Positions 6,575-64,000 of a DNA stretch of 64,000 bases are shown here, piece after piece. The notes below the pieces were generated by a model. The model was given only the letters and a program-made list of their open reading frames with translations. It was not told where the DNA came from and made no database searches. The DNA comes from Micromonospora sp. R77 (GTDB lineage Bacteria > Actinomycetota > Actinomycetes > Mycobacteriales > Micromonosporaceae). Position 1 is the first letter of the stretch, and every line of letters begins with the position of its first letter. The stretch lies in contig NZ_JALDST010000001.1 in assembly GCF_022747945.1 (NCBI RefSeq), positions 5,084,001 through 5,148,000 on the forward strand, written 5' to 3'. The position numbers and the translations under genes were made by a program.

Positions 6575-7108
6575 GTGAGCACGGATGACGAGGCGCGCCC
6601 GGCGGCTCGGCTCACTGTCCTGGGGGGACCTTCGGGTGCCGGTCGGGAGAGTGTCGTCGAGCTGGTCCGGGCGCGTTTCGCACGTGCCTGGGTGCCCGTA
6701 CCGGCCATCACCCGGCCGCCCCGGCCGGGCGAGGTCGACGGGGTCCACCGGTGCTTCCTCGACGACGCCGCGTTCGACCGGATGGTCGCCGCCGGCGCGC
6801 TGCTGGAGTGGAGCCGGGCCGGACCGGTGCGGCGCGGCACGCCGCGCGCCGGGGTGCGGGACCGGCTGGCCGCCGGGGTGCCGGTGCTGCTGCCGCTCGA
6901 CGTGCCCGGTGCGCTCGCCGTCAAGACTGTGGCGCCCGATGCCCAGCTGGTGCTCCTCGCCCCGCCGACGTACCGGCCGGACCCGGCGGTCGCGGCCGCC
7001 TTCGCGCACACCGTGCGGCACGACCGTGCCGAGCGGGCGGCCGATGAGCTGGTAGGCTTGCTCGGTTCTTCCTTCCTGGCTCCGGCCCAACCGCGCGGAC
7101 GCGGTTGA
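6575..7108 (+). CDS. Degenerate guanylate-kinase-like protein
   Basis: Occupies the usual gmk position between mihF and rpoZ and keeps clear family sequence ([37 protein letters not shown]) but appears catalytically broken. The P-loop reads [10 protein letters not shown] (17-26) with arginine where GKS/T is required. The GMP-binding tyrosines in DYHF and YGT are replaced (HRCF, RGT). The LID segment between LAPP and the C-terminal helix is shortened to about 20 residues. Length is 177 against roughly 190-210 usual. The frame is intact, so this is not a sequencing artefact at one site. It may be a non-enzymatic relic or have a new role; a true gmk would be expected elsewhere. GTG start chosen; no strong ribosome site. 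Confidence 0.75.
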
Positions 7109-9987: not shown

Positions 9988-12001
9988 GTGGACGTGCCCC
10001 TGCCGCACCTGGACCGCCCCTTCGACTACCTGGTGCCGGCCGAGCTCGACGCCGAGGCCGTCCCCGGGGTGCGGGTGAAGGTGCGCTTCGCCGGGCAGTT
10101 GGTGGACGGCTGGCTGCTGGCGCGGGCCGAGCGGTCCGACCACCCCCGGCTGGCGTACCTGGAGAAGGTGGTGTCGCCGGAGCCGGTCCTGGCCCCGGAG
10201 GTGGCCCGGCTGGCCCGGGCCGTCGCCGACCGGTACGCCGGCAGCCTCGCCGACGTCCTCCGCCTCGCCGTCCCGCCCCGGCACGCCCGGGTGGAGAAAG
10301 ACCTCGCCGCCCGCCCCGCCGCCACCCCGCCGGCTTTCGACGCTCCGCCGGCACCCGACGCGCGGTCGGGCTGGACGGCCCCGGCGAGGCGTCGCCGGTG
10401 ACCGTGCCGACCGTTGCGGCGCTGCCGACCGTCGGCTCCGCGCCCGGCGGCGACCCGTGGACCCGCGCGGTTGGCGGGACTACCCGGCCGGGCCGGCGCT
10501 GCTGCGCGCACTGGCCGACGGGCGCGCGCCTGGGCCGTCTGGTCCGCCCTCGCCGGAGAGGACTGGGCCGACCGGTACGCCGACGCCGTCGCCGCCACCG
10601 TGCCGGTGGCCGGGGCGCGGTCGTCGTGGTGGCCGACGCCCGCGACCTGGACCGGCTCGACGCCGCGCTCACCGCCACCCTCGGACCGGACCGGCACGTC
10701 TGCCTCTCCGCCGCGCTCGGCCCGGCCCGTCGCTACCGCGCCTTCCTCGCCGCCCGGCGCGGCGACGTGCCGGTGGTGATCGGCACCCGGGCCGCCATGT
10801 TCGCCCCCGTCGACCGGCTCGGCCTGGTGGCGATCTGGGACGACGGCGACGACCTGCATGCCGAACCCCGGTCGCCCTATCCGCACGCCCGGGAGGTGCT
10901 GCTCACCCGGGCCCAGCTCGCCGACGCGGCCGCCCTGGTCGGCGGCTACGCCCGCACCGCCGAGGCGCAGCTGCTGGTGGAGACCGGCTGGGCGCGGAGG
11001 TGGTGGCCGACCGGGCGACCGTGCGGGCGCGCACCCCGGCGATCGCCCCGACCGGCGACGACCCGCAGCTGGCCCGCGACCCGGGCGCGGCGACTGCCCG
11101 GCTGCCCAGCCTGGCCTGGACGACCGCGCGGACACCCTGCGTGCCGACGCCCCGGTGCTGGTGCAGGTGCCCCGCCGCGGCTACCTGCCCTCGGTGGCCT
11201 GCGCGGACTGCCGGACCCCGGCCCGCTGCCCGCACTGCGCGGGCCCGCTCGCGTTGCCGTCGGCCGCGGCACGCCGGCCTGTCGCTGGTGCGGCCGGGTC
11301 GCCGCCGCGTACGCCTGCCCGGAGTGCGGTGGGCGGCGGCTGCGCGCCTCGGTCACCGGTGCCCGGCGGACCGCCGAGGAACTGGGGCGGCCTTCCTCGG
11401 CGTGCCGGTCCGCACGTCCGGCCGGGAGGAGGTGCTCGCCTCGGTGCCCGAGGGCGCCGGCCTGGTGATCGCCACCCCGGGCGCGGAGCCGGTGGCCGAG
11501 GGGGGCTACGGCGCGGTGCTGCTGCTCGACTCCTGGGCCCTGCTCACCCGGGCCGACCTGCGGGCCGGGGAGGAGGCGCTGCGCCGGTGGCTGACCGCCG
11601 CCGCGCTGGCCCGGCCGGCCGGCGCCGGTGGCCGGGTGGTGGTGGTCGCCGACGGCGCGCTCGCGCCGGTGCAGGCGCTGCTGCGCTGGGACGCGGCCTG
11701 GTTCGCCGCCCGGGAGCTGGCCGAACGACGGGAGCTGGGTTTCCCGCCGGCGGTGAAGATGGCCAGCGTCACCGGCATGGCCGAGGCGGTGGCCGACCTG
11801 CTCGCCGGCGCGGCTGCCCGACGACGCCGAGGTGCTCGGCCGGTGCCGGCCGACGAGGGGAAGGAACGGATGCTGGTCCGGGTGCCCCGGGCGCGGGCCG
11901 CCGCCCTGGCCGAGGCGCTGCACGCCGCCGCCGGTCAGCGCAGCGCCCGCAAGGCCGCCGACCCGGTCCGCCTCCAGGTCGACCCACTGAGCCTCTTCTG
12001 A
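9988..12001 (+). pseudogene. priA: Primosomal protein N' (PriA), about ten frameshifts
   Basis: Reading across frames recovers an actinobacterial PriA: VPLPHLDRPFDYLVPAEL at the N-terminus, IGTRAAMFAPVDRLGLVAIW, a zinc-binding region (CADCRTPARCPHC, CRWCGRVAAAYACPECGG), and a C-terminus ending RLQVDPLSLF. The normal helicase P-loop is not evident, as known for actinobacterial PriA. The frame changes near 10370, 10450, 10528, 10612, 10995, 11130, 11265, 11390, 11812 and 11841, nearly all fitting a single missing base in a G/C run. Conserved sequence on both sides of each break argues for sequencing error rather than decay. GTG 9988 is the first usual start; the frame is open upstream to CTG 9925, which overlaps the metK stop. 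Confidence 0.85.
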
Positions 12002-13338: not shown

Positions 13339-14610
13339 GTGGACGCCGCCGACGCTCTCGCCCTGCTGATGTCGCCGCAGGGCCGGATCGACCCCTATCC
13401 GACGTACGAGCGGCTGCGCGCGCACGGCCCGGTGGCGCAGGCCGGTCCGGTCTTCTACGCGGTCACCGGCTATGCCGAGGCCGACGAGATCCTGCGCGAC
13501 CCCCGGTTCGGGGTGATGGACGACGACCTGCGCGACCAGTTCCTGCCCGGTTGGCGGGACAGCCCGGCGGTGCTGTCGATCTCCCGCTCCATGCTGCGCA
13601 CCAACCCGCCGGACCACAGCCGGATGCGGCGACTCGCGGCCGGCGCGTTCACGCCCCGCCGGATCGCCGGCCTGCGGGACGTGGCGGTGGCGCAGGCCGA
13701 CGAGCTGATCGACCGGATGCGGGACCGGGGCCGCGCCGGGGAGCCGGTCGACTTCATGGCCGACTTCGCGTACCCGCTGCCGGTCGGCGTGATCTGCGCG
13801 CTGCTCGGCGTGCCGGCGGCGGACCGGCCGCTGTTCCGCCGGTGGGCGTCCGACCTGACCGGCGTGCTGGAGCCGGAGATCACGTCCGAGGAGCTGGCGG
13901 TCGCCGACCGCGGTGCCGTCGAGCTGCGCGACTACTTCGTCGAGCTGGTCGAGGCGCGCCGGCGCGCCCCGGCCGACGACCTGACCACCGCCCTGGTGCA
14001 GGTGCACGACGCCGACGGCGAGCGGCTCTCCGGAGACGAGCTGCTGGCCAACCTGGTGGTGCTGCTGGTGGCCGGTTTCGAGACGACCACCAACCTGCTC
14101 GGCAACGGCCTGGTGGTGCTGCTGGAGCATCCCCGGGCGGCCGCCGCGCTGCGCGGTCATCCCGAGTTCGCCCCCGACTACGTCGACGAGCTGCTGCGCT
14201 ACGACTCACCCGTCCAGCTCACCTCGCGGATGAGCACCGCCCCGACCCGGTACGGCGGGCTCGACCTGCCCGCCGGCAGCTGGCTGATCCTCATGCTCGG
14301 GGCCGCCAACCGGGATCCCCGGCGCTATCCGGAGCCGCACCGGTTCGACCCGTGGCGGCCGCAGATCCACCCGCTCTCCTTCGGCGCCGGCCCGCACTAC
14401 TGCCTCGGCGCGGGGCTGGCCCGACTGGAGGCGCAGGTGGCCTTCCCGCAGCTGCTGCGTCGGCTGCCCGGCCTGGCCCTGGCCGGCGAGCCGGAGCGCC
14501 GGGTCCGGCTGACCCTGCGCGGCTACGCCACCCTGCCGGTCACCGTGGGTGAGGAGCCCCCGGTCACCGATCGCGGTACGCCGGCCGGGGCGGCTCCGGG
14601 GACTCCGTAG
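13339..14610 (+). CDS. Cytochrome P450
   Basis: A soluble 423-residue bacterial P450 (CYP107-like by overall pattern). It has the I-helix LLVAGFETTTNLL with the oxygen-activating threonine pair, the K-helix ELLRYDSPVQ (ExxR), and the heme-binding loop SFGAGPHYCLGAGLAR with the proximal cysteine. GTG 13339 starts about 84 bases after the kinase/ParB-like gene. No ferredoxin, reductase or biosynthetic genes are adjacent, so substrate is unknown. The gene lies 42 bases upstream of def and is on the same strand. Confidence 0.9.
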   Translation: MDAADALALLMSPQGRIDPYPTYERLRAHGPVAQAGPVFYAVTGYAEADEILRDPRFGVMDDDLRDQFLPGWRDSPAVLSISRSMLRTNPPDHSRMRRLAAGAFTPRRIAGLRDVAVAQADELIDRMRDRGRAGEPVDFMADFAYPLPVGVICALLGVPAADRPLFRRWASDLTGVLEPEITSEELAVADRGAVELRDYFVELVEARRRAPADDLTTALVQVHDADGERLSGDELLANLVVLLVAGFETTTNLLGNGLVVLLEHPRAAAALRGHPEFAPDYVDELLRYDSPVQLTSRMSTAPTRYGGLDLPAGSWLILMLGAANRDPRRYPEPHRFDPWRPQIHPLSFGAGPHYCLGAGLARLEAQVAFPQLLRRLPGLALAGEPERRVRLTLRGYATLPVTVGEEPPVTDRGTPAGAAPGTP

Positions 14611-50276: not shown

Positions 50277-50923
50277 ATGACCACCGTCGACCCGGCCACC
50301 GACGCCGAACTGGCCGACCTGCTCGCCGGCCAGGTGGTGCCCGCCGCGCGGGGCCTGCTCGGCTGCACCCTGACCGCCAACGACGTGACCGTCCGGATCA
50401 CCGAGACCGAGGCGTACGCGGGCACGGCCGGTGACCCGGCCTCGCACGCCCACCGGGGGCGCACGCCCCGCAACGCGGTGATGTTCGGGCCGGCCGGGCA
50501 CGCCTACGTCTACTTCACCTACGGCATGCACTGGTGCGTGAACGTGGTGACCGGCCCCGACGGCGAGGCGTCGGCGGTGCTGCTGCGCGCCGGTGCGGTG
50601 GTCGACGGGCTCGACGTCGCGCGGGCCCGGCGCCCGCCGTACGCCGGGACGTGGACCTGGCGCGCGGCCCGGCCCGGCTCTGCGCCACGCTCGGCATCGA
50701 CCGCGCGGCCTACGGTGCCGACCTGCTGGCGGACGGTCCGGTACGGCTGCGCCCCGCTCCCGCCCCGGTGCCCAACCCGGCGGTCGAGGCCGGCCCCCGG
50801 GTGGGCGTGACCGGCGCGCACGACGTGCCGTGGCGGTTCTGGATCGCCGGCGACCCCACGGTGAGCGCCTACCGCCGGCACGTGCCCCGCACCCGGCGCC
50901 GACCGACCGCCCCGACGGAATAG
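50277..50923 (+). CDS. 3-methyladenine DNA glycosylase (AAG/MPG family), one frameshift
   Basis: Excises alkylated purines in base-excision repair. The sequence has the catalytic glutamate in [39 protein letters not shown] and [10 protein letters not shown]. The frame breaks near 50640; one added base (CCCG-C-CCGTAC) joins VARARRP to [15 protein letters not shown] and continues [12 protein letters not shown] and [15 protein letters not shown] to TAG at 50921, giving 215 residues. The break is in a G/C run, so an error is likely. ATG 50277 is divergent from the HTH gene. Confidence 0.88.
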
Positions 50924-52853: not shown

Positions 52854-53734
52854 TCAGCCGGCCGGCTCGTGCGGGTGGGCGACCAGCACCGGGCAGTGCG
52901 CGTGCTGCACCACGGCCTGGCTGACCGAGCCGAGCAGCAGCCCGGCGAAGCCGCCCGGCCCCGCGAGCCGATCACCACCAGCGCCGCCTGCCCGCTCGCG
53001 GAGATCAGCTCCTGTTCCGGCTTCGCCGCCCGAGCCGTCCGTTCCTCGACGGCCAGCCCCGGGTGGTCGGAGCGGATCCGGGACGCCGTGCCGGCGAGCA
53101 GGTCGGCCGCCTCGGCGTGCCCGGCCGCCCCGGACTCGGCCACCTCGTCGGGCACCCCGTGCCCGTCCTCGGTGGGCAGGACGTGCACCAGCACCAGGGG
53201 AGTGCCGCGGCGGACCGCCTCGTCGGCGGCGAGCCGCGCGGCGAGCGCCGCCGACTCCGAACCGTCCACCCCGGCCAGCACCGGGCCGCCGACCGGGATC
53301 GGCTGCTCGGCGGGGCGGACCACCAGCGCCGGACAGTGCGCGTGCAGCGCCACCTGGGTGCTGACCGAGCCGAGCAGCAGCCCGGCGAAGCCGCCCACCC
53401 CCCGGCTGCCCACCACCACCAGGTCGGCCCGGCGGGACTCCTCCACCAGGGCGGCACCCGGGCCGCCGGCCACCTGACGCACCTGGACGGTCAGCCCGGG
53501 ATGCCGCTCCACCAGGTCGGCGGCGGTCTGTTCGAGCATCTTCTGCGCCTCCTCGGTGGGCGCCGGCACCCCGAGGTCGTACGGGTTGAGCGGCACGCCG
53601 TAGCCGAGCGGGTGCAGGTAGCCGTGCACCAGGTGCAGCGGGCGGGAGCGCCGGTGCGCCGCCTGTGCCGCGTGCTCCGCGGCGACCAGGCTGGCCGGCG
53701 ATCCGTCGACGCCCACCACGACAGGTCGGTTCAT
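52854..53734 (-). CDS. Tandem universal stress protein, one frameshift
   Basis: A 293-residue protein of two UspA domains. Each has VVVGVDGSPASL/AGVDGSESAA at its start and the ATP-binding loop G-x2-G-x9-GS at its end: SRGVGGFAGLLLGSVSTQV and, after correction, PGGFAGLLLGSVSQAV. The second loop is out of frame: one base is missing near 52965 (GGC-CGGGCGG), after which it ends HPHEPAG. Such tandem Usp proteins are typical of actinobacterial DosR-type dormancy regulons. ATG 53734 starts MNRPVVVGVDGS. Confidence 0.88.
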
Positions 53735-53900
53735 CAGACAACTCCCAGAGGTCGGTCAGGTCATTGTGGACGCCACCGCCGCCTCCGCCCCGCATTTGCG
53801 CCGCCACCGCCCGCCGGCCGCCTCCGCGAACTCCGGACACGGCCGTCCGCGTCGGCCTTCGGGCAGGTGGCCGACGCGGACGGGTGGGCAGGGGCAACGG

Positions 53901-54795
53901 TCAGGAGTCGCCGCCGTCCTTGCGGTGCCGGACGATGACCAGCGGGCTGCGGGCGTGGTGCAGGACCGCGTGGCTCACCGAGCCGAGCAGCAACCCGCCG
54001 AGGGCGCCCCGGCCGTGCGCGCCGACCACGGTCAGCTGCGCGTCGGTGGACTCCTCGACCAGCACCCGGGCCGGCGCGCCGGGCACCAGCCGGTGCCGTA
54101 CGGGTACCTCGGGGTAGCGCTCGGACCAGCCGGAGAGGGACTCGACGAGCACCCGCTCCTCCTCGCCGCGCAGTTCCGCCACGTCGTACACCAGGGGCAC
54201 GATGTCGCCGGGGCCGACCGGCGCCGGATAGAGCCAGGCGTGCACCGCGACCAGGGTGGTGCCGCGCTGTGCGGCCTCGGCGAAGGCGAACCCGATCGCC
54301 TCGTGCGACAGTGGCGAGCCGTCCACGCCCACCACCACCGGGCCGTCGGCGCGTGCCTCACCGCGTACCACCAGCACCGGGCAGTCGGCCCGGGCGGTCA
54401 CCTGGATCGCCACCGAACCCACCAGCAGGTCGGCGAAGCCACCCAGTCCCCGGTGCCCGAGCACCAGCAGGGCGGCGTCCCGGCTCTCCCGGCGCAGCAC
54501 GGCGGCCGGGGCGCCGTCGACCAGCTCACCGGTCACCGCCAGCTCGGCGGAGACCTTGCGGGCCTCGTCGACCGCCTCGTCGAGCAGGCTCTCGGCCTGC
54601 GGCCGGAGGCCGGAGTCGGGCAGGCCGCCGGGCACCGGCCCGAGCGGCGTGCCGAGCAACGGCCAGCTGAAGGCGTGCACCACCCGCAGCGGCCGGTGCC
54701 GGGCCGCCGCCTCCGCGCGGCCACCCGCACCGCGTCCAGAGCTGAGGGGGAACCGTCCACGCCCACCACGACGGGGCACCGGATCTGCTGGTCAT
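53901..54795 (-). CDS. Tandem universal stress protein, two frameshifts near the start
   Basis: A second two-domain UspA protein, about 298 residues after correction. The first domain begins IRCPVVVGVDGSPSALDAV, continues AAARHRPLRVVHAF, and has GHRGLGGFADLLVGSVAIQV; the second has GPVVVGVDGSPLSHEAIGFA and GAHGRGALGGLLLGSVSHAV. Both ATP loops are intact. Single-base losses near 54789 (after ATGAC) and 54724 (GCGCG-GAGG) put the first 25 codons in other frames. ATG 54795 follows GGAGGACGTC. A DosR-like box lies 79 bases upstream. Confidence 0.87.
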
Positions 54796-54873
54796 GACGT
54801 CCTCCTTCTGGTTCCGTCTCCAGCCTGCGCCGGGGCCGCCGAACCGGGCAGGGCCGGCGGTCCCGGCGGTGCC

Positions 54874-54887
54874 GGGACCATCGTCCC
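54874..54887. promoter_or_regulatory. DosR-like box upstream of the second stress protein gene
   Basis: GGGACCATCGTCCC is a palindrome (GGGAC-CATC-GTCCC) that matches the GGGAC-N4-GTCCC core of the mycobacterial DosR/DevR box. It sits 79 bp before the start of the Usp gene, in the gap after the ATPase gene. Confidence 0.5.
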
Positions 54888-54891
54888 GTCC

Positions 54892-57463
54892 TCAGCGCCA
54901 CCGCCGGGTCAGTCGCAGCACGAGCCCGGGCAGCGCCGCGACGACCGCGCAGGCCAGCAGCTCCACCGCGCCGAGCGGGGCGGTGCCGAGCAGTGCCCGC
55001 AGCGGGCCGACGAGCACCCCGCCGACCTGGAGCAGCGCGGAGAGCGCCACCGCCACCAGCAGACCGGGGTTGCCCCGGCAGGCGTTCGCGGGGCGGCGGG
55101 CGCGGACCGCCAGGGCCACCCCGAGCTGGGCCAGCCCGAGCACCAGGAAGACCACCGACTGCCACGGCCGGTCGGCGTGCGCGGCGACCACCCCGGCGCC
55201 GAGCGTCACCGCGGCGATCAGGCCGCCGGTGAGCAGCACGTCCCGCCCCAGACCCGCGCCGAGCACCGACTCCTGCGGGGAGCGGGGCGGGCGGCGCAAC
55301 GTGCCCGGCTCCGCCGGTTCCGCGCCGAGTGCCACCCCGGGCACTCCGTGGGTGAGCAGGTTGATCCAGAGGATCTGCGCCGGCAGCAGCGGCAGCGCCA
55401 GCCCGAACAGCGGGCCGGCCAGCATCACCACGATCTCCGCGACCCCACCGGCCAGGGCGTAACGCAGGAACCGGCGGATGTTGTCGTAGATCCGCCGCCC
55501 CTCGCCGATCGCGGCGGCCACCACGGCCAGGTCGTCGTCGACCAGCACCAGGTCGGCGGCCTGCCGGGCCACCTCGGTGCCGCCGCCCATCGCCACCCCG
55601 ATGTCGGCGCGGCGCAGGGCCGGGGCGTCGTTGACGCCGTCGCCGGTCATCGCCACCACGTGCCCCCGGGCCTGGAGCCCGGCGACGATGTCCAGCTTCT
55701 GGTCCGGCTGGGTGCGGGCGAACACCCGGGCCGCCGGGTCCGCGCCGGCCGGGTCGCCGTCGTCGCCCCGGACCACCGGGTCGCCGTCGCGCCACAGGCC
55801 GAGCTGGCCGCCGATCGCGGCGGCGGTGGCCAGGTGGTCACCGGTGACCAGGAGCAGGCGTACGCCGGCCCGGTCGAAGCTGTCGGCGAGCTCGGCGGCC
55901 CCGGCGCGCAGCGGGTCGCCCACCGCGACCAGGCCCACCGGGCGCAGCCCCACCGGCGCGGCCGGGTCGGGTGCGGTGCCCACCAGCCCACCGGCCACGG
56001 CGAGCACCCGCAGCCCTTCCGCCGCCAGCCAGTGCGCCGGCTCGGTCAGCTCCGCCAGTTCCACGGCGGGCGCGTCGACCAGCGGTGCGACCAGCACGTT
56101 CTCCGGCGCGCCCTTGCAGACCACCAGCCAGCCCTGGTCGCAGCCGCGGTGCACCGTGGTCATCCGTCGGGTGTCCTGGTCGAACAGGGTGCTCGGCGAC
56201 CCGGGGCCAGGCCGCGCGGGTGGCGTCCGGGTCCAGGCCGCACCGGGCCGCGAAGGCCACCAACGCCGCCTCCAGCGGGTCGCCGACGGCGGTCCACTCC
56301 GGCCGCCGGTCGTCCGGCGGCGCCAGCGCGGCGTCGTTGCAGAGCAGTCCGGCCCGCGCCAGGCGGCGCAGCTCGTCGGGTACGACGACCCGCTCGCCCC
56401 GCTGCCGCACCACGCCCTCGGGGGCGTAGCCGGTGCCGGTGACCGTGTAGCCGGCGCCGTCGACGGTGACCGCCCGCTGCACCGCCATCCGCCCCTGGGT
56501 GAGGGTGCCGGTCTTGTCCGACGCGATCACCGTCACCGAGCCGAGCGTCTCCACCGCGTGCAGCCGGCGGGGGATGGCCCGGGACCGGGCCATCCGCCGG
56601 GCGCCCAGCGCCAGGGCCAGGGTCACCACGGCGGGCAGCGACTCGGGCACCGCCGCCACCACCAGGCTGACCGCGGTGACCGCCATCTGCACCACCGGCC
56701 GCCCGCCGGCCACCCCGACGACGAAGACCAGCCCGGACAGCAGCACCGCCGCCAGCCCGAGGACCCGACCGAGGCCGGCCAGCCGGCGCTGCAGCGGGGT
56801 GGGGCCGGGCCGGGTCCCGGCGACCAGGCCGCTGATCCGGCCCAGCGCGCTGGCCGGACCGGTGCGCAGCACCACCCCGGTGCCCCGGCCGATGGCGACC
56901 ACCGTGCCGGCGGAGAGTTCCTCGCCGGCGTCCCCTGCCACCGGCACCGCCTCGCCGGTCAGCGCCGACTCGTCCAGCCGCAGCCGGTTGGCCTCCGTCA
57001 GCAGCAGGTCCGCCGGTACGACGTCGCCCGCCTCGACCCGGACCAGGTCGTCGCGGACCACCTCGGCGGCGGGCAGGATCACGTCCTGTCCGTCGCGGAC
57101 CACCCGGGCGGTCGGCGCGGCGAGCTGGTCCAGCGCCGCGATCGCCCGGTCGGCGCGCAGCTCCTGCACCACCCCGATGGCGGTGTTCACGGCGACCACC
57201 AGCAGGATCACCGCGGTGTCCGGATGGTCGCCGAGCACCGTGGTGACCACGGCGGCGGCGAGCAGCAGCGCGACCAGCGGGTCGGTGAGCTGGTGCAGGA
57301 CCCGGACGGCCAGGTGCCGGCGGGGCGGCGCGGCGACCTGGTTCGGCCCCTCGGTACGCAGGCGCGCCTGCGCGGTGGCCGTGCTGAGGCCGGTCGCCGG
57401 TACCTCGACCACCCGGTCGGCGGTGTCCCCGGGGCGGCCGATCGTCGTACCGACTGTGCCCAC
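54892..57463 (-). CDS. Cation-transporting P-type ATPase (type II-like), one frameshift
   Basis: About 856 residues after correction. N-terminal cation-ATPase domain (TAQARLRTEGPNQVAAPPRR), A-domain DESALTGEAVP, TM4 AAVPESLPAVVTLALALG, phosphorylation site SDKTGTLTQG (D316), KGAPE, and MTGDGVNDAPALRRADIGVA. The plan is that of SERCA/PMA-type pumps such as mycobacterial CtpF. TM6 reads WINLLTHGVPG where calcium pumps have N-L-x-T-D-G, so the ion is uncertain. The frame shifts near 56195 (HP-FDQDTRRM), probably one extra base. GTG 57463 has GGAGG six bases upstream. Divergent from hsp20. Confidence 0.87.
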
Positions 57464-57565
57464 CGCTGGCCTCCGTCCTGCGGGCGCGCGCCCGACGCGC
57501 ACCGTCCCGCTCCACCGTCGTCCCCGGGAAGGCCAGGTGGCAGAGGCGTTGCGCCCGCGCGGCCC

Positions 57566-57579
57566 GGGACCATCGGCCC
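57566..57579. promoter_or_regulatory. DosR-like box between the ATPase and hsp20 genes
   Basis: GGGACCATCGGCCC differs by one base from the box at 54874. It lies 103 bp from the ATPase start and 62 bp from the hsp20 start, so it could serve both divergent genes. Confidence 0.45.
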
Positions 57580-57640
57580 TGACGCCGGCGGCGGATCGGG
57601 AGTCGGATGGGACTCAGGACGATCGACAAGGAGGTCGGAG

Positions 57641-58147
57641 ATGTCCACTTCCACCAAGTTCCGCGGCGGTGCCCTGGCGCCGTTCGACTGGACGAACCTG
57701 TCCTGGCTGCCGATGCTGGCGCCCACCATCCGGGTCGAGGACTACCTCGACGGCGACCGGTACGTCGTCCGCGCCGAACTGCCCGGCATCGACCCGACGA
57801 AGGACGTGCGGATCACCCGTACCGGCGACACCCTGCGGCTGGACGTGGTCCGCCGGGAGAGCCACACCGACAAGGTCCACTCCGAGTTCCACTACGGCTC
57901 CTTCTCCCGGCTGGTCCCGCTGCCGGCGGGAGTCCGGGAGGAGACCATCACCGCCCGGTACGCGAACGGCATCCTCGAGATCACCGCGACCGTCGGCCAG
58001 ACCGAGCCGACCGCCCGCGAGATCCCGATCACCGTCGCGCCCGCCGTCAAGCCGGAACCGACTGCCAAGCCGGAACCGACTGCCAAGCCGGAACCGGCCG
58101 CCAAGCCGGAACCGACCGTCAAGGCGGCGCACGCCGGCCGGCGGTGA
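57641..58147 (+). CDS. Hsp20/alpha-crystallin family small heat-shock protein
   Basis: A 168-residue ATP-independent holdase chaperone. The alpha-crystallin domain (about 35-130) has IRVEDYLDGDRYVVRAELPG, DTLRLDVVRRE, FHYGSFSRLVPLPAGV and ARYANGILEITA. The C-terminal IxI-type anchor may be EIPITVAP. After it come four KPEPT/A repeats (KPEPTAKPEPTAKPEPAAKP) and a basic end. ATG 57641 follows GGAGGTCGGAG. Resembles the hypoxia-induced Acr/HspX proteins. Confidence 0.93.
   Translation: MSTSTKFRGGALAPFDWTNLSWLPMLAPTIRVEDYLDGDRYVVRAELPGIDPTKDVRITRTGDTLRLDVVRRESHTDKVHSEFHYGSFSRLVPLPAGVREETITARYANGILEITATVGQTEPTAREIPITVAPAVKPEPTAKPEPTAKPEPAAKPEPTVKAAHAGRR
58049..58120 (+). repeat. Four 18-bp tandem repeats in the 3' end of hsp20
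   Basis: AAGCCGGAACCGACTGCC and close variants, four copies, encoding KPEPTA units. In frame; copy number may vary between strains. Confidence 0.85.
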
Positions 58148-58209
58148 CCCGACCCGAGGGGCCCGGCGGTACGCCGGGTCCCTCACCCGAGCACGGAGGC
58201 GCGAGTGCG

Positions 58210-58686
58210 ATGACCCCGCTGGAGATGCTCCGCGTACATCCCTTCCTCGCCGGCCTGCCGCAGGAGTGGCTGCCCCGGCTGACCGGCTACGCCCGCCCGG
58301 TGGTCTGGCACCCCGGGCACCGGTTGTTCCGGGCCGGGCAGCCCGCGGAACGGTTCTGGCTGGTCCGCGGTGGCCAGGTGGCCCTCGATTTCCCGGTGCC
58401 CGGCCGGGGCGACGTGGGGATCGAGACGATCGGTGCGGGCGGCGTGCTCGGCTGGTCCTGGCTCTTCCCGCCGTACCGCTGGCAGTTCGGGGCGGTGGCC
58501 GTGCAGCGCAGCACCGCGGTGGAGTTCACCGCCGAGGGCGTACGCCGGATGATGGAGGCCGACGACCGGCTCGGCCGGCAGCTCACCACCCGGTTCATGA
58601 GCGTGGTGGTGGACCGGCTCCAGTCCTCCCGGGTCCGCCTGCTCGACCTGTACGGCTACCCGACCGCGCTGCCGCCGACCGGCTGA
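58210..58686 (+). CDS. Cyclic-nucleotide-binding-domain protein without HTH
   Basis: A 158-residue Crp-like sensor domain alone: HPGHRLFRAGQPAERFWLVR, GQVALDFPVPG, and the phosphate-binding region ETIGAGGVLGWSWLFPPYRW, followed by a helix (RRMMEADDRLGRQLTTRFM). There is no C-terminal DNA-binding domain. It may bind cAMP or another ligand and act on a partner. ATG 58210 is 62 bases after hsp20 and has GGAGGCGAG upstream; probably co-transcribed with hsp20. Confidence 0.83.
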   Translation: MTPLEMLRVHPFLAGLPQEWLPRLTGYARPVVWHPGHRLFRAGQPAERFWLVRGGQVALDFPVPGRGDVGIETIGAGGVLGWSWLFPPYRWQFGAVAVQRSTAVEFTAEGVRRMMEADDRLGRQLTTRFMSVVVDRLQSSRVRLLDLYGYPTALPPTG

Positions 58687-58697
58687 CCGCCCGCCGC

Positions 58698-58734
58698 ACC
58701 GCCGCCGGAGACCACCCCGGTCACCGGCGGCGGT
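58698..58734. terminator. Bidirectional terminator before the pflA 3' end
   Basis: ACCGCCGCCGG (58698-58708) pairs perfectly with CCGGCGGCGGT (58724-58734) around a 15-nt loop between convergent genes. Confidence 0.65.
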
Positions 58735-59514
58735 TCAGTAGACGGTCAGTCCCCGTGCGGCGAACTGCCCGCGGACCCGGTCCAGCAGCTCGGCGCCCGG
58801 CGGCTCGGTCTCCGCCAGCGGGAACGTGATGCCCAACTCGGCGTACTTGTGTGCGCCCAACCGGTGGAACGGCAGCACCTCCACCCGTTGGACGGTGGCC
58901 AGCTCGGCGGCGAAGTCCGCCACCCCGGCCACGTTCGCCGCGTCGTCGGTGAGCCCGGGCACCAGCACGAACCGGATCCAGATCGGGACGCCCCGGTCGG
59001 CCAGCCGCCGGCCGAAGCGCAGCGTCGGGGCGACCTCGCCGGTCCGGGTCACCCGCCGGTACGTCGCCGGGTCCCGCGACTTGACGTCCAGCAGCACCAG
59101 GTCGGTGGCGTCCAGCAGCGCGTCGTCGGCGCGGACGCCGAGGAAGCCGGACGTGTCCAGCGCGGTGTGCAGCCCGAGGTCGTGGCAGCGGCGCAGCACC
59201 TCGCCGGTGAAGCGCGGTTGCAGCAGCGGTTCGCCCCCGCTGATCGTGACCCCGCCGCCGGCCACCGTGATGAACCGGCGGTACTTCGCCACCTCCGCCA
59301 TCAGCTCGTCCACCGTACGGTGCCGGCCGCTGCGCCGGTACCAGGTGTCCGGGCTGTGGCAGAAGCGGCAGCGCAGCGGGCAGCCGGCGAGGAACGCCAC
59401 GAACCGGGTGCCGGGCCCGTCCACCCCGACCGACAGGTCGTACGAGTGGACGGCCCCGGTCAGCGGCGTGCCGGTGCGCCCGGGCCGGACCGGCCCGGGC
59501 GTCGGCGTGTTCAC
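58735..59514 (-). CDS. pflA: Pyruvate formate-lyase-activating enzyme
   Basis: A radical-SAM enzyme that makes the glycyl radical on pyruvate formate-lyase. The 259-residue protein has the iron-sulfur motif [15 protein letters not shown] (C-x3-C-x2-C), [23 protein letters not shown] and [18 protein letters not shown] 59514 overlaps the pflB stop (GTGA); the longest frame runs back into pflB and is not used. Works only without oxygen. Confidence 0.93.
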
Positions 59515-61757
59515 AGCGACCCGTGGAACGTCCGGGACACCACGTCCCGCTGCTGTTCCGGGGTGAGGCGGACGAAGTTCACCGCGTACCCGGAGACCCG
59601 GACGGTGAGCTGCGGGTAGCGCTCCGGGTGGGCCATCGCGTCGACCAGGGTGGCCCGGTCGAGCACGTTGACGTTGAGGTGGAAACCGCCGGCGTCGGTG
59701 TAGCCGTCGAGCACCCCGGCCAGGTTGTCGATCCGCTCCTGCCGGGTGCGCCCCAGCCCGTCGGGGGTGACCGTGCCGGTCAGCGAGATGCCGTCCCGGG
59801 CGGCGGCGTACGGCAGCTTCGCCACCGACAGCGCGGCGGCGACCAGCCCGTGGGTGTCCCGGCCGTTCATCGGGTTCGCCCCGGGCGCGAAGGGCTCGCC
59901 GGCCCGCCGGCCGTCCGGGGTGTTGCCGGTGTGCCGGCCGTAGACCACGTTGGAGGTGATGGTCAGCACCGACATGGTCAGCTCGGCGCCGCGGTAGGTG
60001 GGCTGCCGGCGCAGCTTCGCGGCGAACGTCCCGGTCAGCCACACCGCGATCTCATCGGCCCGGTCGTCGTTGTTGCCGTACCTCGGAGGTTCCCCGTCGA
60101 CCAGGTAGTCCACCGCCAGCCCGGTCTCGTCGCGCAGCACCTTGACGGTGCCGTAGCGGATCGCGGCGAGGCTGTCCACGGCGACGGAGAGCCCGGCGAC
60201 GCCGGTGGCCATGAACCGGTGCACCGGGTGGTCGTGCAGCGCCATCTCCAGCCGCTCGTACGCGTACCGGTCGTGCTGGTGGTGGATCACGTTCAGCGCG
60301 TCCACGTACGTCTCGGCCAACCAGTCCAGCGTCCGGTCGTACGCGGCCAGCACCTGGTCGTAGTCGAGGACCTCGCCGTCGACGGGCGGGGTCGCCGGGG
60401 CGACCTGCTCGCCGGTCAGCTCGTCCCGTCCGCCGTTGACGGCGTAGAGCAGCGCCTTGGCCAGGTTCGCCCGCGCCCCGAAGAACTGCATGTCCTTGCC
60501 GACCCGCATGGCCGACACGCAGCAGGCGATCGCGGTGTCGTCGTCGTACGCGGGGCGGATCAGGTCGTCGTTCTCGTACTGGATGGCGCTGGTGTCCAGG
60601 GACACCTGGGCGCAGAACTTCTTGAACCCGTCGGGCAGCCGCGGCGACCAGAGCACGGTCAGGTTCGGCTCCGGCGCGGGGCCGAGGTTGTAGAGGGTCT
60701 GCAGGTAGCGGAAGCTGGTCCGGGTGACCAGCGGCCGGCCGTCCGCGCCGATGCCGCCGAGCGCCTCGGTGACCCAGGTCGGGTCGCCGGAGAAGAGCTG
60801 GTCGTACTCGGGGGTGCGGAGGAACCGGATGATCCGCAGCTTGATCACGAAGTCGTCGACCAGTTCCTGGGCGGTCATCTCGGTCAGCCGTCCCTCGGCG
60901 AGGTCCCGCCGCAGATAGACGTCGACGAAGTTCGCGGTGCGGCCGAGCGACATGGCCGCGCCGTTCTGTTCCTTGGTGGCGGCCAGGTAGGCGAAGTAGA
61001 GCCACTGGATGGCCTGCTGGCCGGTGGCGGCGGGGCGGGAGATGTCGTACCCGTACGAGGCGGCCATCTGCTTAAGCTCGCCCAGCGCGCGGATCTGCTC
61101 GGCCAACTCCTCCCGGTCCCGGATCACGTCGTCGGTGGACGGCCGGTCGTTTAGCGCGGCCTTGTGCGCCTTCCGCTCGGCGACCAGCCGGTCCACGCCG
61201 TAGAGCGCGACCCGCCGGTAGTCGCCGATGATCCGGCCCCGCCCGTACGCGTCGGGCAGCCCGGTGATGACGTGCGAGCGCCGCGCGGCGAGCACGTCGG
61301 CCGGGTACGCGTCGAAGACCGCGTCGTTGTGCGTCTTCCGGTAGCTGGTGAAGATCCGGTGCACGGTCGGGTCGGGGGTGTAGCCGTACGCCGCGAGCGA
61401 GGTCTCCACCATCCGCAGCCCGCCGGCCGGCATGATCGCCCGGCGCAGCGGCGCGTCGGTCTGCAGGCCGACGATCAGCTCCCGCTCCCGGTCGAGGTAG
61501 CCGGGGGCGTGCACGGTGATGGTGGACGGGGTGGCCGCGTCCACGTCGTACACGCCCTTGCGGCGTTCCTCGACGAACATCGCCCCCAACCGCCCCCACA
61601 CCTCGAGGGTGCGGCAGGTCGGCCCGGTCAGGAACGCGGCGTCGCCGGTGTACGGCTCGTGGTGGCGCCGCAGGAAGTCGGCCACGTCGATCGTCTCGCG
61701 CCAGGGACCGTCGGTGAAGCCTCGCCACGGGTCCAGGACGTGCTGGTTGCCGGTCAT
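59511..61757 (-). CDS. pflB: Pyruvate formate-lyase (formate C-acetyltransferase)
   Basis: Splits pyruvate to acetyl-CoA and formate by a radical mechanism in anaerobic conditions. The 748-residue protein carries the active-site cysteine pair in AIACCVSAM (C412-C413) and the glycyl-radical loop RVSGYAVNF (G723) near the C-terminus, plus [14 protein letters not shown] at the start. ATG 61757 follows GGAG; the frame is open to 61790. It is unusual in a mainly aerobic actinomycete and is coupled to pflA by GTGA. A DosR-like box lies 90 bases upstream. Confidence 0.95.
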
Positions 61758-61846
61758 GATCTGCTCCTGTCGAGCCGGTTCACCTTCCACCCCGAGCCTT
61801 CCGCGCCGCCGGGTGGCCGGGCAGAGCCGCAGGGACCGACGGGGCC

Positions 61847-61860
61847 GGGACTTCCGCCCC
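61847..61860. promoter_or_regulatory. DosR-like box upstream of pflB
   Basis: GGGACTTCCGCCCC fits the GGGACTTNNGNCCC pattern of DosR boxes and lies 90 bp before the pflB start. Third such site in the cluster. Confidence 0.45.
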
Positions 61861-61944
61861 TGTCGACGGGCCGGTCGGCCCGCGCCCAGGACGGCTACCG
61901 GGCGCCGACCCCGGTGCAGGGGTCGACGCCCGGGGCGCGGCGGG

Positions 61945-62401
61945 TCAGCGTGCGGCGACCAGCCGCCGGGCCCGCAGCAGCCGCGCCCACCAGGGCCGGT
62001 CGGCGGGCCGCAGGGTCGGCGGGCGTACGCCGCGCAGGCTCACCCAGCCGCCCGGTCCCATGGTCACCGCGCCGATCGCCGGCGGCCGGCGGCGGGCCGT
62101 CACCGCGACGGCGGCGGTGAGCACGGCCACCGCGAACGCCCCGGCGGCCGCCGCGACGAGCTGGTCGGGGTCGACCACCCGCCGGTAGCGGACCCCCCTG
62201 CGAGAGGACGAACGCGCCGATCGGCCGGCCGGCGTGGGTCACCGGCACCAGCGCGGCGGGTGGCGTGCCGGGCAGTTCCAGCACCGGTCCGATCGGGGCG
62301 ACCGGCTCGGCTGCGGTCGGGGCGGGGGCCGGCGCGGACGCCGGTCGGGGCAGGGGTGGGCCGACCGGGGCGAGTCCGGTGGGGTTGAAGATCGCGGTCA
62401 T
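61945..62401 (-). CDS. Small membrane protein between ppdK and pflB, one frameshift
   Basis: After removal of one G from a G-run at 62193-62198 the frame gives a 151-residue protein: a Pro/Ala-rich N-terminus ([18 protein letters not shown]), a [15 protein letters not shown] segment, one membrane helix ([19 protein letters not shown]), and a basic C-terminus with [14 protein letters not shown]. No known family is recognised. The indel is in a homopolymer, typical of sequencing error. Position between ppdK and pflB on the same strand suggests an anaerobic role; inferred only. Confidence 0.55.
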
Positions 62402-62414
62402 CGCAACTGCCCTC

Positions 62415-64000
62415 CTAACGGGAGTCGGACGTGCCGGTGGTGGAAGCGACGGCGGCCCGCCCGGCGGCCAGCCGGGCGATCGGCACCCGGTACGGCGAGC
62501 AGGAGACGTAGTCCAGGCCGGCATCGGCGAAGAACGCCACCGAGTCCGGGTCGCCGCCGTGTTCCCCGCACACCCCGACGGTCAGCCCGGGGCGGGTGGC
62601 CCGGCCCTCCTGGACGGCCAGCCGGATCAACCGGCCGACGCCCCGCGCGTCGATCGTCTCGAACGGCGACACCGGGAAGATGCCGCGCTCCAGGTAGGTG
62701 CTGAAGAACGAGCCCTCCACGTCGTCGCGGGAGAACGCCCACGCGGTCTGGGTGAGGTCGTTGGTGCCGAACGAGAAGAAGTGCGCCTCGGCGGCGATCT
62801 CCCCGGCGGTCAGCGCCGCCCGGGGCACCTCGATCATCGTGCCGATCGGGATCTCCGGCGCCCCGTCGACGGTGGCGAGGACGCGTTCCGCCTCGTCCCG
62901 CACCGCAACCAGTTCCCGCACGTCACCGACGAGCGGGACCATGATCTCCGGTCGGGGGTCGCCGCCGGCCCGGATCCGCTGCGCCGCCGCCTCGGCGACC
63001 GCCCGGACCTGCATGGCGAACAGTCCGGGCACCACCAGGCCGAGCCGCACCCCGCGCAGCCCCAGCATCGGGTTGGCCTCGTGCATCCGGCGCACCGCCG
63101 CCAGCAGCGTCGCGTCCCGGCCGGGGTCCTGACCGAGCGCCTCGGCGCGGGCCACCCGGGCGGTCAGCTCCTCAAGCGGCGGCAGGAACTCGTGCAGCGG
63201 CGGGTCGAGCAGCCGAATCGTCACCGGCAGCCCGTCCATCGCGGCGAGGATGCCGACGAAGTCGGTCCGCTGCAACGGCAGCAGCGCGTCCAGCGCGGCG
63301 GTCAGCTCGTCCGGACCGTCGGCCAGGATCAGCCGCTCCACCAGCTCCCGCCGTTCGCCGAGGAACATGTGCTCGGTGCGGCACAGCCCGATGCCGGTGG
63401 CACCGAACCGGTACGCCCGCCGGGCGTCGTCGGGGGTGTCCGCGTTCGCCCGGACCCCCAGCTTGCGCACCTGGTCGGCGTGACCGAGCAGCCGGTGCAC
63501 GGCGGCGACCAGCGGGTCCGCCTCTCCGCTCAGCTCGCCGGCCAGGTAGCGGGCCACCGGGGAGGGCTGCACCGGCACCTCGCCGGGATAGATCCGGCCG
63601 GTGGTCCCGTCGATCGAGATGACGTCGCCGGCCCGGACCACCCGGTCGCCGACGGTGAACTCGCCGCGGTCGGGGTCGATGTCGAGCGCGTCCGCGCCGC
63701 AGACGCAGGTCCGGCCCATGCCCCGGGCCACCACGGCGGCGTGCGAGGTCTTCCCGCCGCGCGAGGTGAGCACCCCCTGCGCGGCGATCATGCCGGGCAG
63801 GTCGTCCGGGTTGGTCTCCCGGCGGACCAGGATCACCGGGTCGGTGGCCGCCGCGGCGGCGGCCGAGTCGAAGACCACCCGCCCGACGGCGGCACCCGGC
63901 GAGGCGGCGACCCCGACCGCGAGCGGCGCCGGCGCGGCGGCCGGGTCGAAGGCGGGGAACATCAGCTGCGCGAGCTGCCCGCCGGTGACCCGCAGCAGCG
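62415..64000 (-). CDS. ppdK: Pyruvate, phosphate dikinase, C-terminal part
   Basis: Interconverts pyruvate and phosphoenolpyruvate. The gene runs off the window end on the minus strand; about 528 C-terminal residues are seen. They contain the end of the nucleotide domain (VTGGQLAQLMFPAFDP), the swivelling phosphohistidine domain LTSRGGKTSHAAVVARGMGR, and the PEP-binding barrel with GLCRTEHMFLGERR, RLLDPPLHEFLP, MIEVPRAALTAGEIA, FFSFGTNDLTQTAWAFSRDD and VCGEHGGDPDSVAFF with the catalytic cysteine. It is 13 bases from the small membrane protein gene. PPDK is also in mycobacterial hypoxia regulons. Confidence 0.96.
   Translation of the reverse strand, partial: LLRVTGGQLAQLMFPAFDPAAAPAPLAVGVAASPGAAVGRVVFDSAAAAAATDPVILVRRETNPDDLPGMIAAQGVLTSRGGKTSHAAVVARGMGRTCVCGADALDIDPDRGEFTVGDRVVRAGDVISIDGTTGRIYPGEVPVQPSPVARYLAGELSGEADPLVAAVHRLLGHADQVRKLGVRANADTPDDARRAYRFGATGIGLCRTEHMFLGERRELVERLILADGPDELTAALDALLPLQRTDFVGILAAMDGLPVTIRLLDPPLHEFLPPLEELTARVARAEALGQDPGRDATLLAAVRRMHEANPMLGLRGVRLGLVVPGLFAMQVRAVAEAAAQRIRAGGDPRPEIMVPLVGDVRELVAVRDEAERVLATVDGAPEIPIGTMIEVPRAALTAGEIAAEAHFFSFGTNDLTQTAWAFSRDDVEGSFFSTYLERGIFPVSPFETIDARGVGRLIRLAVQEGRATRPGLTVGVCGEHGGDPDSVAFFADAGLDYVSCSPYRVPIARLAAGRAAVASTTGTSDSR

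Follow-up and report, generated by a model that had tools for sequence, protein, structure and literature searches.

Gene Content of the Locus

Micromonospora is an antibiotic-producing genus, and the window analysed here is a stretch of 64,000 nt (G000:C1:5084001-5148000) from a Micromonospora genome of 7.14 Mb and 74% GC. The island considered within it carries, on the minus strand, the genes usp1, usp2 and that of a ctpF-like ATPase, then pflA, pfl, a gene for a small membrane-type protein and ppdk, and, on the plus strand, hsp20 and the gene for a lone cyclic-nucleotide-binding (cNMP)-type domain (Table 1). A preliminary description had read this gene set from the DNA together with three sites resembling DosR/DevR boxes, and Pfam bears the gene set out, recognizing two Usp proteins, a type II P-ATPase, Hsp20, the lone cNMP domain, a radical-SAM activase, pyruvate formate-lyase (PFL) and pyruvate phosphate dikinase (PPDK). 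As argued below, this is very probably a DevR (DosR/OsdR) regulon island of Micromonospora, a known kind of system, with a predicted response to oxygen and predicted binding of DevR to its boxes.

Judging from its equivalog score, its Cys-Cys pair and its glycyl radical motif, the glycyl radical enzyme encoded here is PFL: comparison with E. coli PFL (1h16) gives E 5.1e-299, and the alignment covers both the Cys-Cys pair and the RVSGYAV stretch. The pflA product is, again by equivalog score, the PFL activating enzyme. The N-terminal part of ppdk lies beyond the window end (L043:2-1075; Pfam PPDK_N 8.7e-50).

Table 1. Genes and putative DevR-type boxes of the island, in window coordinates.
Feature	Position	Strand	Evidence
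usp1, tandem universal stress protein	52854..53734	-	Pfam Usp on 52967-53734
usp2, tandem universal stress protein	53901..54795	-	Pfam Usp 2.6e-46 on 53901-54701
putative DevR-type box, tandem partner before usp2	54850..54865	.	devR-promoter matrix 13.5, rank 3 in window
putative DevR-type box before usp2 (54874 in the preliminary description)	54873..54888	.	devR-promoter matrix 14.5, rank 2
ctpF-like type II P-type ATPase	54892..57502	-	Pfam E1-E2_ATPase, Cation_ATPase_N/_C on its two pieces
putative DevR-type box common to divergent ctpF/hsp20 (57566 in the preliminary description)	57565..57580	.	devR-promoter matrix 16.0, rank 1
Hsp20 family small heat-shock protein, C-terminal KPEPT-type repeat tail	57641..58147	+	Pfam HSP20 3.1e-14; tail from translation
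lone cyclic-nucleotide-binding-type domain	58210..58686	+	Pfam cNMP_binding 2e-09 only
pflA, pyruvate formate-lyase activating enzyme	58735..59514	-	NCBIfam TIGR02493 290.5 bits, cut-off 231.75
pfl, pyruvate formate-lyase	59511..61757	-	NCBIfam TIGR01255 1108.6 bits, cut-off 994.2
weaker putative DevR-type box before pfl (61847 in the preliminary description)	61846..61861	.	matrix 9.1, rank 8; similar boxes in L054, L055
stronger putative DevR-type box before pfl	61867..61882	.	OsdR matrix 13.5, rank 2; devR-promoter matrix 12.7, rank 4
small membrane-type protein gene between PPDK and pfl	61895..62401	-	two-frame match to relatives
ppdk, pyruvate phosphate dikinase, C-terminal part	62415..64000	-	Pfam PEP-utilizers_C 3.8e-74

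DevR-Type Boxes and Their Placement

The window was scored with two matrices, both built without its own sites: the OsdR matrix, made from the 26 OsdR sites published for S. coelicolor (PMC5069765, Table 1), and the devR-promoter matrix, made from 10 distinct sites in the devR promoters of 30 Micromonospora genomes including the present one. The four best sites in the 64 kb by the devR-promoter matrix (16.0, 14.5, 13.5 and 12.7, at 57565, 54873, 54850 and 61867, respectively, with the fifth at 9.8) all fall in three gaps, those upstream of usp2 and of pfl and the one that separates ctpF from hsp20, which together make up 371 of the 64,000 bases. The OsdR matrix also places 57565 first and 61867 second. 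The three sites of the preliminary description are present where it had put them, 62-103 bp upstream of the usp2, hsp20 and pfl starts, and those at usp2 and ctpF/hsp20 rank high; its pfl site, however, is a weak one by score, with the stronger box 21 bp away. The boxes before usp2 also form a tandem pair, spaced 23 bp apart, and tandem boxes at 21-23 bp are seen again in some relatives' loci. A further putative box, CGGGCCAGAGGTCCCG (matrix score 11.6), lies about 100 bp upstream of the ppdk start.

Conservation of the Boxes in Relatives

The motif of the preliminary description, GGGAC-N4-GNCCC, was then followed upstream of the corresponding genes in relatives, with the present genome counted in every figure. 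A ctpF match is carried by 51 of the 101 genomes searched, and in the best 30 loci, which were used here, the motif is found upstream of ctpF in 29 (reversed pattern: 1). In all 30 a usp2 match follows ctpF, and the motif is present on this side in 24 (reversed: 1). For hsp20, a box stands at -67 or -68 in 7 of 8 loci, six with the motif itself, a count that stands without a reversed control. Upstream of pfl (300 bp, 64 Micromonosporaceae genomes), the motif occurs in 35 of 65 sequences compared to 3 of 65 for the reversed pattern, and dinucleotide shuffles of these sequences give a mean of 1.6 and a maximum of 5 over 200 shuffles. We note that this set of 65 upstreams derives from 70 match rows in 65 genomes: both G102 copies were kept, and the rows dropped were G155, which lacks the N-terminus, the partial copy in G176, the second of the copies in G095, and the second pieces in G120 and G167.

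Outside the family, a matrix score of at least 11 is reached upstream of pfl in 17 of 41 actinobacteria (reversed: 0) and in 1 of 35 other genomes (reversed: 1); this single non-actinobacterial match is a misfiled Streptomyces (L195), and once it is reassigned, the counts become 18 of 42 and 0 of 34. The named pfl loci were drawn from the best 80 among the matches listed.

The Regulator, Its Kinase and Other Islands

A DevR orthologue (L041:9454-10083) is encoded about 0.5 Mb from the window, and its best solved match is M. tuberculosis DevR (3c3w, E 1.2e-70; VraR follows at 3e-42), with which it shares the identical stretch MFLAEKTVKNYVS. A convergent gene adjoining devR (L041:10124-11794) encodes a kinase of Pfam architecture GAF-GAF-HisKA_3, the first GAF of which finds the DosT and DevS GAF chains as its best matches (E 9e-54 to 1e-48); by these matches, it is a DosS/DosT-type kinase with a putative haem GAF. 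The search for a devR/dosR homologue proposed in the preliminary description therefore yielded both an orthologue and a DosT/DevS-like kinase beside it.

The devR promoter, which is shared with a divergent nitroreductase gene, carries boxes at -53 and -110. Across the genus, 26 of 30 devR promoters score at least 9 by the OsdR matrix (a count made without a control), the rest scoring 6.3 to 7.2, one of these with 64 bp readable. Further genes of the devR island encode another nitroreductase, a P-ATPase that carries a hemerythrin domain, two Usp proteins and a phosphoketolase, the last of which hints that the same program includes an additional way of making ATP at the substrate level; the phosphoketolase gene and a usp gene adjoin each other (L041:15570-18868). 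In a third island, boxes lie upstream of narG, of a hemerythrin gene and of an MFS transporter gene that follows the nar genes (narG was assigned by TIGR01580 above its cut-off, narH by Pfam, and narJ and narI by place only). Typical regulon targets with boxes nearby are thus usp, hsp20, nitrate reductase, nitroreductase and hemerythrin genes. The orthologue with its kinase, the box in the devR promoter and the conserved boxes before usp2, ctpF/hsp20 and pfl all support the resemblance to DosR/DevR that had been suggested.

Association of PFL with DevR

Among 200 genomes of the family, PFL is found in 65 and DevR in 170; DevR is present in 64 of the 65 pfl-bearing genomes versus 106 of the 135 without pfl (Fisher 8e-5, not corrected for descent). 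Counted by hand, at least 19 of the 65 pfl-bearing Micromonosporaceae have pfl and devR no more than 20 kb apart (binomial 4e-25, under a chosen 0.75% chance per genome), and in four of these the distance is less than 1 kb. By genus, these neighbours comprise 10 from g29, 7 from g34 and one each from g24 and g21. At one locus (L143), genes for PPDK, the small membrane protein, an alcohol dehydrogenase, PFL and PflA are co-directional, with DevR facing them. A devR match near pfl also occurs in several Streptomyces, in Sphaerisporangium melleum and in a Frankiaceae metagenome-assembled genome.

Frame Breaks and Remaining Genes

In the present assembly, a frameshift splits each of four genes, namely usp1, usp2, ctpF and the small membrane protein gene. 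The usp1 frameshift lies near the 3' end at ~52,960 (a family search matches this gene in the pieces C1:5136952-5137284 and 5136878-5136958), the usp2 frame is broken near its 5' end, such that a reading from 54794/54795 meets stops, and ctpF is shifted near 56,160-56,190; at least one break falls at a run of C, at ~62,190. The ctpF match occupies one open frame in most close relatives (about 870-1370 aa; 544 here), and the small membrane protein gene is intact in two (L054:869-1336 and L143:14597-14962). The pfl, pflA, hsp20 and ppdk frames are open, and the boxes, too, are undamaged. A home-made coding score finds split frames in other loci of the same assembly as well. As the frames are open in most relatives compared for ctpF and in the two compared for the small membrane protein, and as frames break at many places across the assembly, we read the four frameshifts as probable indel errors of the assembly, going by sequence comparison. 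The same score also marks further genes in the window that end early, ahead of a stop codon, at 6692-7051, 9988-10988, 13339-14568, 50277-50645 and elsewhere, a pattern that again suggests assembly indels.

The small protein encoded at 61895-62401 has, by eye, apparently one membrane helix, and its signature ends in RPWWARxLRAxRLV. It has 361 relatives, which among the 120 matches listed are mostly from Micromonospora, and gave no Pfam match over the cut-off and no NCBIfam match; in one genome (G045), the copy shows full-length identity to a protein named from M. sediminicola. In the lone cNMP-type protein (58210-58686), a Pfam search found no helix-turn-helix family. In NCBIfam, this protein also weakly matches the family 2B encapsulin shells (E 3.4e-05; 23 bits against a cut-off of 400).

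Weighing the Explanations

Several observations weigh against a DevR regulon at this locus. The enrichment by which the preliminary description would have judged its motif is seen neither in the window (6 occurrences versus 5.29 expected, with 43 of 100 shuffles reaching at least the observed number) nor genome-wide (145 versus 177 for the reversed pattern); since the counts equal chance, the loose motif is uninformative by number, being too loose to test the regulon idea. The tighter forms GGGACCNNNGKCCC (30 versus 52 reversed) and GGGCCGNNCGKCCC (78 versus 155 reversed) are likewise not enriched genome-wide, while GGGACCTTCGGCCC with at most one mismatch gives 19 versus 10, and some exact boxes lie within coding regions or upstream of unrelated genes (C1:451860, C1:5563307). 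Within the window, the OsdR matrix puts the usp2 boxes at 54850 and 54873 only at ranks 5 and 7, and reversed matrices reach 14.0 and 16.3 elsewhere, about as high as the forward ones, such that score within the window is weak evidence when taken alone, and we rejected it as such. In relatives, the motif is absent from 30 of the 65 pfl upstreams (L052, L053 and L056 are examples, and in these pfl seems to lie downstream of another gene), and the genomes compared are related by descent, so that their counts are not independent trials. Finally, none of the 19 pfl-devR neighbours is from Micromonospora, the two genes being far apart in the window's own genome, and in one genome with pfl, G081, no match to DevR was obtained at E 1e-50 (about 230 contigs; 15 of 241 candidates scored).

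The unenriched motif and the high-scoring reversed matrices are what one would see if the boxes were chance GC-rich palindromes of a 74% GC genome, in a cluster that is loosely stress-related. We nevertheless consider this exceedingly improbable, given the placement of the boxes and their conservation before ctpF, usp2 and pfl relative to the reversed pattern, where the ctpF and usp2 counts already argue against it: what goes beyond chance is where the boxes lie and how they are conserved, not how often the motif occurs. Real boxes might instead serve another response regulator of the NarL/LuxR type in this genome, in which the DevR query gave 114 first-look candidates (not all of them regulators), and where a further LuxR-type regulator (L265:5519-6127) is encoded at a distance of about 8 kb from narG. 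The same kind of box in the devR promoter itself, the MFLAEKTVKNYVS stretch matching M. tuberculosis DevR, and the linkage of pfl to devR itself in other genera make such a regulator very unlikely as the reader of these boxes. The split frames of four genes, in turn, could mark the island as a decaying remnant. This is also very unlikely, as breaks scored in the same home-made way also occur elsewhere in the window and assembly, at least one of those in the island falls at a C run, and the four open genes and undamaged boxes fit assembly indels better than pseudogene decay.

A Model for the Regulon

In a DevR regulon of this kind, the haem-GAF-type kinase would sense low oxygen or nitric oxide and phosphorylate DevR, and phospho-DevR would bind the palindromic boxes (near CGGGACCWWCGGCCCT), some of them in tandem 21-23 bp apart, and raise transcription. 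Its predicted targets would be usp2-usp1, ctpF/hsp20, pfl-pflA, probably ppdk, devR itself, narGH, and the hemerythrin and MFS transporter genes. The output would be survival without oxygen, through stress proteins, nitrate respiration and substrate-level ATP: PFL would yield acetyl-CoA and formate, PPDK, if running from phosphoenolpyruvate, AMP and pyrophosphate, would form ATP, and nitrate reductase would take electrons. The DNA binding, the oxygen response, the direction of flux through PPDK and the fate of formate are steps that we infer; what can be read directly from the DNA is the gene set, the boxes with their conservation, the pair of regulator and kinase, and the pfl-devR linkage in other genera.

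A broader proposition, on which we are evenly divided, is that in Micromonosporaceae, and partly across Actinomycetota, a fermentation module (PPDK, the small membrane protein, PFL and PflA) is under the direct control of DevR together with nitrate reductase, such that a regulator of hypoxia and dormancy, in organisms supposed to be strict aerobes, turns on mixed fermentation as well as formate/nitrate metabolism, with the small membrane protein, for which neither Pfam nor NCBIfam has a family, as a dedicated part.

Around a tRNA-Sec, at about 6.469-6.478 Mb of C1, lies a possible selenoprotein formate dehydrogenase locus (L320:9163-12465, L044:2906-2998, L044:3387-6075) that shows, by eye, an alpha subunit gene containing a TGA in frame, a beta subunit, and genes resembling those of SelA and SelB. 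This putative enzyme could consume the formate from PFL; a search for a DevR box upstream of the formate dehydrogenase gene listed none at the thresholds applied.

Comparison with Known Systems

In the open-licence literature, we found neither an earlier description of a DosR/DevR hypoxia regulon for Micromonospora or its family, or of pyruvate formate-lyase for Micromonospora, nor a paper on pyruvate formate with DosR and universal stress in actinobacteria. The present analysis extends the DevR/OsdR regulon to Micromonospora with evidence from conservation, and pfl membership is now backed by conservation across a family, which suggests that a link so far drawn from one Streptomyces transcriptome is widespread. 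It also opens to test how mycelial actinomycetes that are usually called aerobic make ATP without oxygen.

As in M. tuberculosis, where DosR/DevR-DosS/DosT govern a dormancy regulon, the regulator is orthologous and the kinase is of the haem-GAF type. There, ctpF is a target of the DosR regulon, while, to our knowledge, PFL and PPDK are not part of it, and the Micromonospora box is more GC-rich. The targets shared with this regulon are usp, heat-shock and nitrate genes, as named in PMC5069765.

The island also resembles the OsdKR regulon of S. coelicolor and S. lividans (SCO0198-SCO0219 and others), which also has a DevR-type regulator and boxes such as AGGGACCTTCGGCCCC (consensus AGGGCCGATCGGCCCT), which the Micromonospora boxes resemble. 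In PMC5069765, OsdR of S. coelicolor is given as a DevR orthologue whose sites are predicted upstream of usp genes, of PPDK (SCO0208), and of the nitrate reductase and Crp-like genes, with gel shifts at a set of sites that includes the one between SCO0207 and SCO0208; its Table 1 supports usp, PPDK, nitrate reductase, hemerythrin and Crp-like genes as shared content. Table 2 of PMC6302529 has PFL (SCO0206) and PPDK (SCO0208) co-expressed with OsdR in S. lividans, so that PFL is shared as well. The preliminary description had presented the tie of PFL and PPDK to such a regulon as unusual: this unusualness is weakened by what these two sources report. As OsdR is already tied to usp, PPDK and PFL in Streptomyces, the island is a further case of a known system. 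Unlike the OsdKR regulon, the predicted Micromonospora regulon is spread over at least three separate islands, its ctpF and hsp20 have a common box, and a conserved small membrane-type protein is encoded between PPDK and PFL.

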